This document shows positions 4,024 through 34,200 of a stretch of 64,000 bases of DNA, in pieces. A program made the position numbers and the translations under genes. The DNA comes from Streptomyces sp. CG1. Lineage in GTDB: Bacteria > Actinomycetota > Actinomycetes > Streptomycetales > Streptomycetaceae. How positions within the stretch are numbered: the stretch's first letter is position 1; every line of letters starts with the position of its first letter. The DNA lies in NCBI RefSeq assembly GCF_041080625.1, contig NZ_CP163518.1, positions 2,046,001 to 2,110,000 on the forward strand. The letters run 5' to 3'. A model generated the notes under the pieces. That model was given only the letters and a program-made list of their open reading frames with translations. It ran no database searches and was not told where the DNA came from.

Positions 4024-4457
4024 GGCACCGGCTCCACAGGGGACGTCCACGGGAGTTCGATCGACACCGTCTTGCCGCCCTCGCGGGTGGGGCGGACGCG
4101 GAGTTTGCCGCCGCACTCCGCGGTGAGACAGCGGATGATGACCATGCCGCGGCCGTTGTCCTGCTGGACGGCGGCAGGCAGTCTCTTCGGAAAGCGCGGG
4201 TGACTGTCCGTGACGCCGATGCGCAGATGTTCGTCACGGTCCAGCGCGATGTCGACCGTGAAGGTGGGTGACTGCCCCAAGGTGTGCTGTACGGCGTTCG
4301 TGGCGAGTTCGGAGACGATGAGCCGCACGGTGTCGGCCACGTCGGTGTCCGACGGCAGGCCCCACTCCGCGAGCGTGCCCACGACGTAGGAACGGGCGGC
4401 GGAGACCGAGGCTGGATCGCTCGGCAGAGTGACGGATGCTTCCAGATGGTCTGCCAT
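4020..4457 (-). CDS. Anti-sigma-factor-like ATP-binding protein
   Basis: A 145-residue GHKL/HATPase_c domain of the RsbW/SpoIIAB type. The N box ELATNAVQH (residues 50-58), the D-x-x-x-P G1 region near Asp84 and the G2 segment NGRGM (101-105) are visible. Such small cytoplasmic kinases usually phosphorylate an anti-anti-sigma partner or bind a sigma factor. Many Streptomyces place one next to an XRE/DUF397 pair, exactly as here, where it is divergent from the XRE regulator. The start at 4457 is the first Met of the conserved region. Confidence 0.85.
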   Translation of the reverse strand: MADHLEASVTLPSDPASVSAARSYVVGTLAEWGLPSDTDVADTVRLIVSELATNAVQHTLGQSPTFTVDIALDRDEHLRIGVTDSHPRFPKRLPAAVQQDNGRGMVIIRCLTAECGGKLRVRPTREGGKTVSIELPWTSPVEPVP

Positions 4458-4583
4458 GACGACGCCGTCCCTTTCCCGCGGGACCGCAGTCCGACACGGA
4501 GCGGAAGGTTCGAGTACGGTCCCGGACTGGTGCTTGCTCGTCAGCCTGCCATCACCGGGCCGGTCACGGGGAGCGATCCACCA

Positions 4584-4599
4584 AGATATGCATATATCT
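4584..4599. promoter_or_regulatory. AT-rich palindrome AGATAT-N4-ATATCT
   Basis: A 6-bp inverted repeat around GCAT stands out as an AT island in the divergent region between the ATPase and XRE genes. It is a good candidate operator or promoter element for the XRE protein itself. Confidence 0.4.
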
Positions 4600-4670
4600 G
4601 TCGCCCGAAGCGGTGAACTCTACGACGCGAGACCGTATTTGGGCGGCCCGGAAGGAGTAAGGAGGAGCCC

Positions 4671-5531
4671 ATGCAGAACGGGCCGGCGGTGCGGCGCCGC
4701 AAACTGGGCGCCGAATTGCGCACGCTGCGTACCGGTGCTGGGCTCACGAGCGGTGAGGCGGCCCGGCTGGTCGGCTGGCACCAGTCGAAGGTGAGCCGTA
4801 TCGAGACGGGTGCCAGCGGCGCGAAACCGGTCGACGTGCGGTTACTCCTGGACGCCTACGAGGTGCGGGACGGGCAGCTGCGCGAGCTGCTGCTGATGCT
4901 GGCCGGCTCCGAGGAAGCGGGCGACCGGCACCGCTGGTGGCACGCCTACCGCGGGGTACTGCCGCCCACCTACCGGGACTTCATCAGCCTGGAGTCACAG
5001 GCCAGCGCGATGCGCACCCTGGAGACCACGGTCGTACCCGGCCTGCTGCAGACGCCCGAGTACGCCCGCGCGGTGACCCGGGCCGCCGTGACGGACCTGG
5101 ACGACGAACGCCTGGACACACTGGTGGAGGTACGGCTGGCCCGGCAGGACGTGCTCCGCACCGAACGGCCGCTCAGGCTGAGCGCGGTGCTGGACGAGGC
5201 GGTGCTGCGGCGCGAGATCGGCGGCCCCGAGGTGATGGCCCGGCAGCTGGAGCGGCTGATGGACGCGGCCCGGCTGCCCCAAGTCCGGCTCCAGGTCCTG
5301 CCGTTCGGCGCCGGAGCGCATGTCGGCCTCACTGGACCTTTCGTTATCTTCTCATTTCCGAGCACTTCTGATCTGGACGTGGTTGTTCTCGACCAGTTGA
5401 CGAGTAGCCTCTACCTGGAACGGAAAGAAGACCTCATGGCCTACTCAGAGGCCTTCGACACCCTTCGGATGCACGCCCTTTCACCCGAGGAATCGTTGGA
5501 TTACATCGCCGGGATAGGTGACGGCGCGTAA
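4671..5531 (+). CDS. WhiJ-type XRE regulator (HTH + DUF5753)
   Basis: A 286-residue regulator with an N-terminal Cro/XRE helix-turn-helix (about 8-70, including GEAARLVGWHQSKVSRIETG) and a C-terminal DUF5753 domain (about 95-280; RDFISLESQASAMRTLE, VPGLLQTPEYARA). A GGAGG ribosome site precedes ATG 4671. Paralogues such as whiJ work with a DUF397 protein in developmental control. Codon 58 (4842-4844) is TTA, the rare leucine codon read by the bldA tRNA, so translation should be limited to late growth. The DUF397 gene follows 9 bp later. Confidence 0.9.
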   Translation: MQNGPAVRRRKLGAELRTLRTGAGLTSGEAARLVGWHQSKVSRIETGASGAKPVDVRLLLDAYEVRDGQLRELLLMLAGSEEAGDRHRWWHAYRGVLPPTYRDFISLESQASAMRTLETTVVPGLLQTPEYARAVTRAAVTDLDDERLDTLVEVRLARQDVLRTERPLRLSAVLDEAVLRREIGGPEVMARQLERLMDAARLPQVRLQVLPFGAGAHVGLTGPFVIFSFPSTSDLDVVVLDQLTSSLYLERKEDLMAYSEAFDTLRMHALSPEESLDYIAGIGDGA

Positions 5532-21086: not shown

Positions 21087-21685
21087 CCCGCGCATCCCAC
21101 GCACCCCGCTCGCCGCGCTTCACGAAGGCGGAGCTGGAGGCCGCCCGCGACCGTCTCGTACCGGACGTCGTCGCGGACGGCCTCCGGGTGCTGTTCTGCG
21201 GCATCAACCCCGGGCTGATGACGGCGGCCACAGGACACCACTTCGCCCGCCCCGGCAACCGCTTCTGGCCGGTGCTGCACCTGTCCGGCTTCACGCCGAG
21301 GCTGATGCAGCCGGCGGAGCAGCGGGAACTGCTGTCGTACGGCCTGGGCATCACGAATGTCGTGGCGCGGGCGACGGCGCGGGCCGACGAGCTGAGCGCC
21401 GAGGAGTACGTCGAGGGCGGGCGGCTGCTGGCCGAGAAGGTGACACGGCTGCGGCCGCGATGGCTGGCCGTGGTCGGGGTGACTGCGTACCGGGCCGCCT
21501 TCGGTGACCGGACGGCCCAAGTGGGGCCGCAGGAGCGGACGTTCGGGAACACCCGGGTGTGGGTACTGCCCAATCCCAGCGGGCTGAACGCGCACTGGAC
21601 GGCGGCGAGCATGGCGGAGGAGTTCGCCCGCCTGCGCGACGCTGCGCCGGCCTGGAAGCAGGTCACGGCGGGTCCACGGTGGTGA
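21083..21685 (+). CDS. Mug/TDG-type mismatch uracil-DNA glycosylase
   Basis: A G:T/U mismatch glycosylase homologue. The core GINPGL motif (VLFCGINPGL), FARPGNRFWPVLH and the C-terminal LPNPSGLNAHW are clear. Homology to E. coli Mug (GLRVVFCGINPGL) starts before the only canonical start, GTG 21188, which would delete part of the first strand. The frame is open back to a CTG at 21083 overlapping the purB stop, with no ATG, GTG or TTG between. I place the start there, provisionally. The 3' end overlaps a convergent gene by 23 bp. Confidence 0.75.
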   Translation: MTRASHAPRSPRFTKAELEAARDRLVPDVVADGLRVLFCGINPGLMTAATGHHFARPGNRFWPVLHLSGFTPRLMQPAEQRELLSYGLGITNVVARATARADELSAEEYVEGGRLLAEKVTRLRPRWLAVVGVTAYRAAFGDRTAQVGPQERTFGNTRVWVLPNPSGLNAHWTAASMAEEFARLRDAAPAWKQVTAGPRW

Positions 21686-22106: not shown

Positions 22107-22147
22107 GCGATCCAGTAAACCGGGCGGCACTGACAATTGGCGGGCTG

Positions 22148-30841: not shown

Positions 30842-30911
30842 CACGCGCCGCAGCGTCCCAGTAGGTGTTGGTTCGACACACCGGCCGGATCCTTTCCCTG
30901 GAGGCGCAGCC

Positions 30912-32495
30912 ATGTCAGACCGTTCGCTCCCCGGCCGCCGCAGCGTGCTGCGCGGCTCCCTCGCCGCGTCGGCGGCCCTCGCCCTGCCCGTCGGCCTCGG
31001 CGCGGCCCCGGCGTTCGCCCGCTCCGGGCGCCCGCAGGCCGACTGGGGTGTGCAGGCGGGTGACGTGACCACCGATTCCGGCTTGGTGTGGGTGCGTTCG
31101 GACAGGCCGGCCCGGATGATCGTGGAGACCGCGGCCACCGAGTCGTTCCGCAATCCGCGCAGATGGCACGGTCCGGTGCTGGGCGCCGGCACGGACTTCA
31201 CCGGCACCACCCGGCTGCACCGCCTGCCGTCGGGCGAGCAGATCCACTACCGCGTACTGCTCGCCGACCCGGACGACCCGCGCCGCACCGGCGAGCCGGT
31301 GACCGGCACCTTGCGTACGGCGCCGGTCAAGCGGCGCCAGGGCGTGCGGTTCGTGTGGTCGGGCGACCTGGCCGGACAGGGCTGGGGCATCAACGAGTCC
31401 ATCGGCGGCTACCGCATCTTCGACGCGATGGCGAAGGTCGACCCGGACTTCTTCCTGTGCAGCGGCGACAACATCTACGCCGACGGCCCGATCGCGGCGA
31501 CCGCGGCGCTGCCCGGCGGCAAGGTCTACGGGAACGTCACCACCGAGGAGAAGTCGCACGTCGCGACCACCCTGGACGACTACCGGGGCAACTTCCGTTA
31601 CAACCTGCTGGACGCGGCGCTGCGCCGGTTCAACGCCCAGGTGCCGAACATCATCCAGTGGGACGACCACGAGGTCCGCAACAACTGGTACCCGGGCGAG
31701 GTCATCGGCGCCGGCACCCCCTACCCGGCCGGCACCAGGCTCGACGACCTGGCGCTGCGCTCCCGGCAGGCGTTCTCCGAGTACTTCCCGGTCTCCACGA
31801 TCAGCGGGCACCCGGACGGCCGCATCTACCGCGTGGTCAACCACGGTCCGCTGCTGGACGTGTTCGTGCTCGACATGCGCACCTACCGCAACGCGAACTC
31901 GCCGGACAACCAGACCACGGACCCGGTGGGCATCCTCGGCCGCGAGCAGCTGGAGTGGCTCAAGCGCGAGCTGGCGAAGTCCCGTGCGGTGTGGAAGGTG
32001 ATCGCCAACGACATGCCGCTCGGTCTTGTCGTGCCCGACCCGGTGGAGGGCAAGCCGAACTTCGAGGCCGTGGCACAGGGCGACCCGGGCACCCCGCTCG
32101 GCCGTGAGCTGCAGATCGCCGAGCTGCTGCGCTTCATCAAGCACCGGCGGATCACCGGCACGGTGTGGCTGACGGCCGACGTGCACCACACCTCGGCCCA
32201 GCACTACGACCCCTCTCGGGCCGCGTTCAAGGACTTCGAGCCGTTCTGGGAGTTCGTCTCCGGCCCGCTCAACGCAGGCGCCTTCCCGGCCAACGCGCTG
32301 GACGGCACGTTCGGCCCGGACCGGGTGTTCGTCAAGGCGCCCACCACCGCGAACGTGTCGCCGGCGGAGGGCTACCAGTTCTTCGGCGAGGTGGACATCG
32401 ACGGCGAGAGCGGCGAACTGACGGTCAGGCTGCGTGAGTACGACGGCACGGTGCTGTTCACGCAGACGCTCCAGCCGGGTCGGGTCGGCCAGTAG
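30912..32495 (+). CDS. phoD: PhoD-type alkaline phosphatase, Tat-exported
   Basis: A 527-residue secreted phosphodiesterase/phosphatase. The Tat signal has the twin arginine GRRSVLRGS and ends near AFA-RS (about 37). Metal-binding blocks follow: WSGDLAGQG, CSGDNIYADG, WDDHEVRNNW and TADVHHTSAQHY. It releases phosphate from extracellular phosphodiesters using iron and calcium, by family knowledge. A PHO-box-like repeat upstream fits PhoP control. GGAG precedes ATG 30912. Confidence 0.93.
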   Translation: MSDRSLPGRRSVLRGSLAASAALALPVGLGAAPAFARSGRPQADWGVQAGDVTTDSGLVWVRSDRPARMIVETAATESFRNPRRWHGPVLGAGTDFTGTTRLHRLPSGEQIHYRVLLADPDDPRRTGEPVTGTLRTAPVKRRQGVRFVWSGDLAGQGWGINESIGGYRIFDAMAKVDPDFFLCSGDNIYADGPIAATAALPGGKVYGNVTTEEKSHVATTLDDYRGNFRYNLLDAALRRFNAQVPNIIQWDDHEVRNNWYPGEVIGAGTPYPAGTRLDDLALRSRQAFSEYFPVSTISGHPDGRIYRVVNHGPLLDVFVLDMRTYRNANSPDNQTTDPVGILGREQLEWLKRELAKSRAVWKVIANDMPLGLVVPDPVEGKPNFEAVAQGDPGTPLGRELQIAELLRFIKHRRITGTVWLTADVHHTSAQHYDPSRAAFKDFEPFWEFVSGPLNAGAFPANALDGTFGPDRVFVKAPTTANVSPAEGYQFFGEVDIDGESGELTVRLREYDGTVLFTQTLQPGRVGQ

Positions 32496-32537
32496 GCAAC
32501 TCCTCGACTCTACGGGCCTTTTCGCAGGTCAGGCCGA

Positions 32538-32560
32538 TTGTCAGTGGTCGCGGCTACGGT
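32538..32560 (+). promoter_or_regulatory. RecA-independent DNA-damage promoter (PafBC type)
   Basis: TTGTCAGTG (32538-32546), an 8-bp spacer and TACGGT (32555-32560) match the actinobacterial RecA-NDp consensus TTGTCRGTG-N8-TANNNT at every defined position. In mycobacteria this promoter class is activated by PafBC after DNA damage. An ATG lies 6 bases after the -10 box. Confidence 0.75.
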
Positions 32561-32566
32561 TTTCGC

Positions 32567-32770
32567 ATGAAGCGATCACTGCAGGCCATGACCCTTTCCC
32601 TGCCCTCCGCGCCGAAGTCGGCGGAGGACGACAACGCCACGATCTGGGGCCGTACGACGCGGGCGCACCCGACCGTAAGAATGAACACAAAAAGGACGGA
32701 GCATGCTTTACCCATCGGTCACAAACAGTTCGTGATCACGCAACACCGTTCCTTCACAGTGGGTGCATGA
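32567..32770 (+). CDS. Small leaderless ORF with TTA codon
   Basis: A 67-residue basic protein of no recognised family. Its ATG lies 6 bases after the TACGGT box, so the message would be leaderless. Its stop overlaps the ATG of the ACT-GNAT gene (ATGA), which has no ribosome site of its own, so this ORF could act as a translational feeder. Leu48 is TTA (32708-32710), adding possible bldA control. A 10-residue ORF with a good AAAGGACGGAG site starts inside it at 32703 in another frame. GC bias is weak, so it may instead be leader RNA. Confidence 0.45.
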   Translation: MKRSLQAMTLSLPSAPKSAEDDNATIWGRTTRAHPTVRMNTKRTEHALPIGHKQFVITQHRSFTVGA

Positions 32771-34200
32771 GTGCAGACATGTCTGATGTGATCCGAGCGA
32801 AGCACGGTCGGCCCGTGCACCATTGGCGGCGTGATCTCGTGGAACTCGCCGCCCTGTTCACCGCCGTGGCGGTCGCCGACGGAGTGGCGAATCTGATCGG
32901 GCACGGCCCCGACGGCCCCGCTCTGCTGGTGATCTCGGCCCTCGTGCTGGCCGCGACCGCCGGCTTCCACACCTGGTGGGCACGGCGCCACGGACACGCA
33001 CCGCCGACCGAGGATACCGGCGCCCGGCCGTCCGCCGAGACGCGGTCGGCCGGGCCCTCCGAGCAGCCGGGCGAGCCGGCGGACGCCGGTGCCCTGTGGC
33101 GGATGCGGACGACGGTCAAGGACGAGCCGGGGTCGCTCGCGGCGCTGTGCACGGCGCTGGCCGAGCGGCACGTCGACATCCTGAGCCTCCAGACGCACCC
33201 GCTGGCCGACGGCACCGTGGACGAGTTCCTGCTCCGGGCACCCAGCGCGCTGGCGGCGGCCGAGATCAACCGAGTGGTCTCGCTGGCCGGCGGCACGTCC
33301 ACCTGGATCGAGCGGGCCGACGCCCACGACCTGGTCGACGCCCCCACCCGGGTGCTCGGCCTGGCCGCGCGCACCGCGCTGGACGCCGCCGAACTGCCCC
33401 TGGCACTGCGTCAGTTGCTGGGCCGGTGCACGATCCGCTCGCTGCCCGGGAGGCCGGCCGGCAGGGACCGCGGGCCGCAGCCGGTGCCGGTGCCGGTCGA
33501 GGGCGTGCTGGAGGACACCGTGATGCGGCTGCGGGCGCCGGAGGGCGGAGTGCTCACCGTGGAGCGGCCGTATCTGCCGTTCACGCCGACCGAGTTCGCC
33601 AGGGCCCGGGCCCTGGTGGAGCTGGACAACCGGCTCGGTCCGCGCATCCCGCGCGGCAAGGACGTGCTGACGCTGCCCGAGGGCAACGACATCACGGTCC
33701 GCCGGGTCGACACCTCGGACCTGGCCGCCGCGAAGGCGATGCACGAGCGGTGCTCGCCGCGCACCCTCGACATGCGCTACCACGGCCCGGTCAGCGACGC
33801 GGACCGCTATCTGAACCACCTGCTCAGCCCCCGTTTCGGCCGCACACTGGCCGCGCAGACCGCCTCCGACCGCATAGTCGGCCTCGGGCATCTGCTGTGG
33901 GACGGCGACGAGACCGAGGTCGCGCTGCTGATCGAGGACGAATGGCAGCAGCGCGGCATCGGTGGCGAGCTGCTCGGCCGGCTCGTGGCCATGGCCGTGG
34001 AAGCCGGCTGCGACAGCGTGTACGCCGTGACGCAGGCCTCCAACACGGGCATGGTCACCGCGATGCGCGGCCTCGGGCTGCCACTGGACTACCAGATCGA
34101 GGAGGGCACGCTGGTGATCACGGCCCGCCTGGAGGCAGCCTCGGCCGGCTCCCACGGGGACGCCCGTACGCTGCTGGGTGAGAAGGTCCACCGCGACTGA
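32767..34200 (+). CDS. Membrane-anchored ACT-GNAT protein
   Basis: A 477-residue protein with two predicted N-terminal membrane helices (about 22-65), an ACT-like ligand-binding domain (about 108-185; TTVKDEPGSLAALCTALAERHVDI as adjoining blocks), a linker region, and a C-terminal GNAT domain (about 310-455; VRRVDTSDL, WQQRGIGGELLGRL). This suggests an acetyltransferase allosterically controlled by an amino acid, as in some mycobacterial and Streptomyces lysine acetyltransferases. Its start overlaps the upstream small ORF. Confidence 0.8.
   Translation: MSADMSDVIRAKHGRPVHHWRRDLVELAALFTAVAVADGVANLIGHGPDGPALLVISALVLAATAGFHTWWARRHGHAPPTEDTGARPSAETRSAGPSEQPGEPADAGALWRMRTTVKDEPGSLAALCTALAERHVDILSLQTHPLADGTVDEFLLRAPSALAAAEINRVVSLAGGTSTWIERADAHDLVDAPTRVLGLAARTALDAAELPLALRQLLGRCTIRSLPGRPAGRDRGPQPVPVPVEGVLEDTVMRLRAPEGGVLTVERPYLPFTPTEFARARALVELDNRLGPRIPRGKDVLTLPEGNDITVRRVDTSDLAAAKAMHERCSPRTLDMRYHGPVSDADRYLNHLLSPRFGRTLAAQTASDRIVGLGHLLWDGDETEVALLIEDEWQQRGIGGELLGRLVAMAVEAGCDSVYAVTQASNTGMVTAMRGLGLPLDYQIEEGTLVITARLEAASAGSHGDARTLLGEKVHRD

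Follow-up and report, generated by a model that had tools for sequence, protein, structure and literature searches.

The locus described here raises the question of whether a short open reading frame, lying between a promoter-like sequence of DNA-damage type and an acetyltransferase gene, is itself a gene. In the window, that is, the whole stretch of 64,000 nucleotides of Streptomyces sp. CG1 DNA that was analysed, a gene for a PhoD-like phosphatase (phoD, 30909–32495; Pfam PhoD, 1e-87) is followed, on the same forward strand, by the promoter box (32538–32560), a 67-codon micro-ORF (32567–32770) and the ACT-GNAT gene patA (32767–34200). The original prediction took the micro-ORF to be a leaderless, damage-induced small gene, coupled translationally to patA and subject to bldA control through a TTA codon. 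Its description of the sequence is correct: the ATG (32567) occurs 6 bases past the box, there are 67 codons, of which one is TTA (32708–32710), and the TGA (32768–32770) overlaps the patA ATG at 32767. Correct too is the statement that the micro-ORF belongs to no known family, matches having been found neither in Pfam (E up to 1) nor in NCBIfam (E up to 0.01).

The box has the form TTGTCAGTG-N8-TACGGT, and positions 32538–32560 read TTGTCAGTGGTCGCGGCTACGGT. The consensus of the RecA-independent damage promoters of mycobacteria, as given in PMC5656591, is tTGTCRgtg-N8-TannnT, and the window box shares with these PafBC/RecA-NDp (recA P1-type) promoters every defined base, just as had been claimed. 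With up to one mismatch allowed, two matches are present in the window compared with 0.03 in shuffled windows. The whole genome contains 34 exact matches and none to the reversed pattern which served as a control, so that the box represents a PafBC-type motif occurring far above chance. Seven Streptomyces genomes holding other loci of this study possess 19–38 exact boxes each, again with none for the reversed pattern. Of the 34 boxes, 20 have loci, and from these we chose by hand, and named, ten ORFs situated 3′ of a box, the locus under discussion not being one of them. Eight of the ten specify proteins of DNA repair, replication or recombination (UDG, MgsA, RuvC, UvrA, UvrB, MGMT, DnaX and a RecD2-HHH protein), the remaining two being a HAD hydrolase and ribosomal protein S6. 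A PafC-family regulator is also encoded in the genome (HTH_PafC, 97 bits, G000:C1:2568985). Elsewhere in the window a second box-like site, TTGTCAGTGCCGCCCGGTTTACT, is found on the reverse strand at 22114–22136 with one mismatch. The product of the forward-strand ORF at 21188–21685 resembles a mismatch-specific uracil-DNA glycosylase.

The motif has a history in this genus. In S. rimosus the recA promoter inducible by UV is TTGTCAGTGGC-N6-TAGggT, and the Streptomyces version of the motif, along with DNA-repair genes bearing it, had already been described (PMC2375139). Taken together, its sequence and position support the assignment of the window box as a putative promoter of the PafBC/RecA-independent type, placed for leaderless initiation. 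It differs from the known PafBC/RecA-NDp promoters in that the gene which it served has been deleted, and the box now stands before a different one, some 200 bases upstream of patA.

The product of patA has 477 residues and possesses an ACT domain (residues 115–148; 26.9 bits, just under the Pfam cut-off of 27) and a GNAT domain (residues 310–438, above cut-off), together with two hydrophobic stretches near the N-terminus (residues 27–45 and 49–71). In these respects the original prediction of an ACT-GNAT protein is supported, as is the statement that the gene lacks a ribosome binding site of its own, no evident Shine-Dalgarno sequence being seen by eye before it. It carries the sequences DXPGXL (at residue 119) and QXXGXG (at residue 394), which were both present in 80/80 relatives as well. 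These relatives, which were fetched with the ACT-GNAT protein and are used throughout, are the best 80 of 580 and therefore lean to close kin. The order ACT-then-GNAT and both motifs are shared with the AAPatA family (SvePatA, ScoPatA), the tested Streptomyces members of which are activated by asparagine and acetylate an acetyl-CoA synthetase in vitro, according to PMC6434083. By domain order and motifs the window protein is a predicted AAPatA-type lysine acetyltransferase.

What the box formerly served can be seen in three intact loci (L131–L133). Here the box, TTGTCAGTGGTCGCCTCTACGGT, is followed 6–7 bases on by the ATG of a gene for a SWIM zinc-finger protein, then by a second gene, the upstream element of patA, and the ACT-GNAT gene. 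The SWIM protein is 468–472 amino acids in length and begins MTRS.QAVAYRRPS.LES. In addition to Pfam SWIM it has weak matches, below cut-off, to PafC-HTH and to the DprA winged helix. The product of the second gene possesses DUF7824, DUF7825 and DUF6493 motifs; these matches are modest, and all are above cut-off. In two of the three stretches (L131 and L133) the end of phoD lies 5′ of the box.

The SWIM protein was matched in 26/61 genomes, two of them weakly and in part, and had no match in the genome from which the window derives (E up to 0.001). The two weak partial matches (L158 and L159), in which no box was found on the one strand scanned, were left out, and the other 24 loci were examined. 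A box was located 6–7 bp before the SWIM ATG in 22/24, with no mismatch in 13 and one mismatch in nine; in the two loci without a box the match lacks the N-terminus of the protein. The second gene is present in 23/24, and phoD lies 5′ of the box in 11/24 (L134–L144). The 22 loci with a box include another family of the order. There, genome G038 has a SWIM frame followed by a frame of 905 amino acids, and the stretch from G045 gave nothing clear on operon context. As an observation in its own right, the SWIM and DUF6493/7824/7825 pair behind a PafBC-type box recurs in L131–L157 and L217, in Streptomyces and in another family of the order. We found no literature tying a SWIM zinc finger to DNA damage in Streptomyces.

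Among the best 80 of 580 relatives, phoD lies directly upstream of the acetyltransferase gene in 40, as it does in the window, and a SWIM-type gene plus the second gene lie upstream of patA in 29; the stretches for these 29 end before the box, which was seen in L131–L133. Of the rest of the same 80, three have phoD and a piece of the second gene, one has phoD and pieces of both genes, one has the second gene alone, and six have none of phoD, SWIM and second gene. By comparison of these loci, the SWIM and DUF6493/7824/7825 pair is judged to have been deleted from between phoD and patA in several lineages. Both genes are missing from the window locus, where the scar contains the start of the SWIM gene and a small fragment of its partner.

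The first of these pieces comprises about 20 codons of the SWIM gene (32567–32630). Positions 32538–32630, box included, align with 452–545 of L131 at 79.8% over 94 columns (E 1e-17), and the start of the micro-ORF, MKRSLQAMTLSLPSAPKSAED, aligns to SWIM codons 1–20, the intact SWIM start being MTRSLQAVAYRRPSALESAAD. The second piece, AACGCCACGATCTGGGG at 32633–32649, is identical at 17/17 bases to the second gene of L041 and is in the same frame (codons NATIWG). Its match score of 34 was reached in 0/300 shuffles, the highest score being 31, where the shuffles preserved base composition only. This piece falls within a 26-bp block (32627–32652) which is nearly invariant among genomes carrying the scar. 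Beyond NATIWG the micro-ORF consists of intergenic DNA and then of the promoter region of the acetyltransferase gene. The final third of the ORF, with the TTA codon and the overlapping ATGA in it, coincides with the conserved putative promoter region of patA.

Other remnants of the pair were encountered. In L026, phoD is followed by a box carrying a single substitution (in TTGTC) and by the C-terminal 71 residues of the second gene. In L211 the end of phoD and the box precede five codons of the SWIM gene, after which come residues 382–450 and 557–651 of the second gene in different frames. L099 retains pieces of both genes.

The putative promoter region of patA (32706–32760; CTTTACC..GTCACA..GTTCGTGATCACGCAACAC..CACAGT) is defined by its conservation. 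In the best 80 of 580 relatives (L021–L100), mean identity to the window is 86% from −66 to −1 relative to the patA ATG, in contrast to 40% from −100 to −67 and 32% from −160 to −101. The per-base agreement in this set is 75–80/80 for GTCACA, GTTCGTGATCACGCAACAC and CACAGT, and 69–80/80 for CTTTACC. The −10-like CACAGT (32755–32760) is located at exactly −12 to −7, that is, 6 bases before the ATG. Since this is the place of a −10 sequence if transcription starts at the ATG, and the spacing is that between the box and its own ATG, the patA transcript is probably leaderless. A plain sigma-70 scan of 32400–32900 revealed no consensus promoter-like site, and an activator would therefore be expected. 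Thus patA appears to have its own conserved and probably leaderless promoter, and translational coupling, which the original prediction had proposed as the route of its expression, is not supported. The conserved stretch upstream of patA, about 60 bp long (32706–32766), contains a CGTGATCACG palindrome. It was considered as a regulon motif and rejected: the 19-bp core occurs exactly just once in the genome, and the five further sites each have three mismatches.

The remaining features which had made the micro-ORF look like a regulated gene are shared with strains which have no box. An exact box occurs within 450 bp upstream of patA in only three of the best 80 of 580 relatives, and the micro-ORF is in this sense not conserved. 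In the window plus these 80 relatives, the TTA occurs at the same position in 69/81 sequences and within one base of it in 81/81, and 77 of the 81 have no exact box within 450 bp. The TTA is part of CTTTACC, in the upstream element of patA, and as a bldA switch it was rejected on this ground. The TGA at +1, which forms the ATGA overlap, is likewise found in 81/81. Where no box is near (77 of the best 80 relatives), reading backwards from the ATGA meets no stop for at least 22 codons in 62, and none in any of the 53 codons examined in 28, so that a frame may stay open through the promoter without there being a gene. TTA, ATGA and open frame, being common to box-less relatives, are thus properties of this DNA and not of an ORF.

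For an assessment of selection we counted six distinct genomes with the scar (the window, L021, L022, L023, L210 and L212), all related by descent. Several entries are probably the same strains (G177 and L021, G142 and L026, G033 and G061, G020 and G063), hence this count. A search with the scar DNA matched 90/392 genomes, and from these matches six stretches were chosen by eye, a procedure by which further scars may be missed. Two of the six were new scars (L210 and L212), one was L021, L211 had another deletion, L214 had an intact SWIM gene, and L213, from the genome of L026, had no box by the filter used. A pattern running from the box to ATGACNCG had matches in 11/61 genomes. A gapped pattern, run over 395 relatives of G148, matched G148 alone, its gap length excluding the longer form present in the window.

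In the 26 codons that can be aligned upstream of the patA element, variable sites are distributed 11/11/11 over codon positions 1, 2 and 3, and pairwise codon differences over the scar among the six genomes amount to 42 synonymous versus 132 non-synonymous. In the part of the ORF lying outside constrained DNA, dN is 0.095 and dS 0.127 between the window and L021, and 0.197 and 0.089 between L022 and L023. This pattern is unlike that of constrained coding sequence and gives no indication of selection on codons. In 6/6 scar genomes the frame is open and the box shows no change at its defined bases (12/12), the sole indel block among them being one of 42 nt which keeps the frame. The 26-bp block is invariant at 23/26 columns, whereas the 53-bp spacer between it and the patA element, in which there is no indel, is invariant at 23/53. 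The mean pairwise difference is 0.038 for the block, 0.044 for the patA promoter and 0.307 for the spacer. The undefined bases of the box (8/11 invariant) and the 25 bp preceding it (17/25) also change slowly, and the conservation of the box is in consequence less striking than a comparison with the spacer alone would suggest.

These observations are, we believe, very probably explained by deletion: the micro-ORF would be what was left of the SWIM-DUF pair behind a damage-type promoter, with patA expressed mainly from its own promoter. The ancestral order would have been phoD, the PafBC-type promoter, the SWIM gene, the DUF6493/7824/7825 gene, the promoter of patA, and patA. Comparison of the loci indicates that the window lineage lost both middle genes, with the left break some 20 codons past the SWIM start and the right breaks both within and beyond the 3′ end of the second. 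The survivors would be a damage-type promoter, a leaderless ATG, and a frame which by chance is open through the patA promoter to the ATGA. Transcription of patA would then begin mainly at its conserved promoter, probably leaderless from the patA ATG. Transcripts from the orphan box, if made, would be leaderless, may enter patA, and would specify a short peptide with no function under selection. For patA and the box alike, we infer leaderless transcription from spacing only. As a gene, then, the micro-ORF is not supported, its parts coming from two deleted genes and no codon constraint having been seen; it is very probably a composite deletion remnant. The idea of a conserved small protein was rejected on the same grounds and for want of a family match in Pfam or NCBIfam. 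Against a plain decaying scar it must be said that in all six genomes the box is perfect and the frame open, and that the block is conserved like the patA promoter. The invariant box, open frame and conserved block leave room for continued activity of the promoter or for a new DNA or RNA element.

The reading nearest to the original prediction, that of a functional, leaderless and damage-induced micro-ORF coupled to patA and dependent on bldA through its TTA, could draw on the frame being open in 6/6 scar genomes and preserved both by the 42-nt indel block and by the spacer. We consider it highly improbable. Variable sites fall evenly on the three codon positions (11/11/11), non-synonymous differences exceed synonymous ones, and the dN and dS values above (0.095 and 0.127; 0.197 and 0.089) do not favor it; the TTA is within one base in 81/81 sequences (the window and the best 80 of 580 relatives), 77 of them lacking an exact box within 450 bp; and the pieces of the ORF come from two deleted genes. 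More might be said for promoter capture, in which the deletion set a PafBC-type promoter before patA and selection keeps it there, so that damage raises amino-acid-sensing lysine acetylation by read-through in this clade. The box is perfect in 6/6 scar genomes (12/12 defined bases, against 23/53 spacer columns), a PafC-family regulator is present in the genome, and a scan of 32400–32900 revealed no site resembling a terminator between the box and patA. An intact box with no such site downstream means that damage-induced read-through into patA could occur, and damage control of patA by this route in the scar clade is possible. That selection maintains it strikes us as rather unlikely, given that patA retains a strongly conserved upstream element of its own, that 8/11 undefined box bases and 17/25 of the preceding bp are also invariant, which reduces the contrast, and that L026, in which the operon is also deleted, has a substitution in the TTGTC of its box. 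Furthermore, there are only six genomes, kin by descent, and the intact L133 is likewise without a terminator-like site before patA (4400–4900), so that read-through may be old and not new.

The block itself might be a new non-coding element, either a site for a regulator or an RNA element in the 5′ region, with the PafBC transcript or patA as its target. With 23/26 columns invariant and a constant distance to the patA ATG in the six genomes, beside a 53-bp spacer at 0.307, it would be a natural candidate. Part of the block, however, derives from the coding DNA of a deleted gene, the clade is small, and a search of 32450–32900 against Rfam (E up to 1) gave no match, the result on which an RNA element in this region was rejected; we hold a non-coding element to be quite improbable. 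One might also combine these notions and suppose that the deletion rewired a RecA-independent damage promoter onto patA, with the block from the deleted genes kept between the two promoters as a new regulatory element, such that in this clade protein acetylation answers to both asparagine and DNA damage. This too we think unlikely.

With the deletion reading, the small-gene and bldA claims for the micro-ORF fall away, and the locus illustrates how a promoter left by a deletion, plus a few leaderless codons, can mimic a conserved regulatory micro-ORF. The SWIM-DUF pair emerges as a likely target of the RecA-independent damage promoter of Streptomyces, one which has been lost in several lineages, and this bears on a question left open for S. 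venezuelae in PMC9380542. Should the orphan box be active still, the scar clade would constitute a natural experiment in promoter capture.
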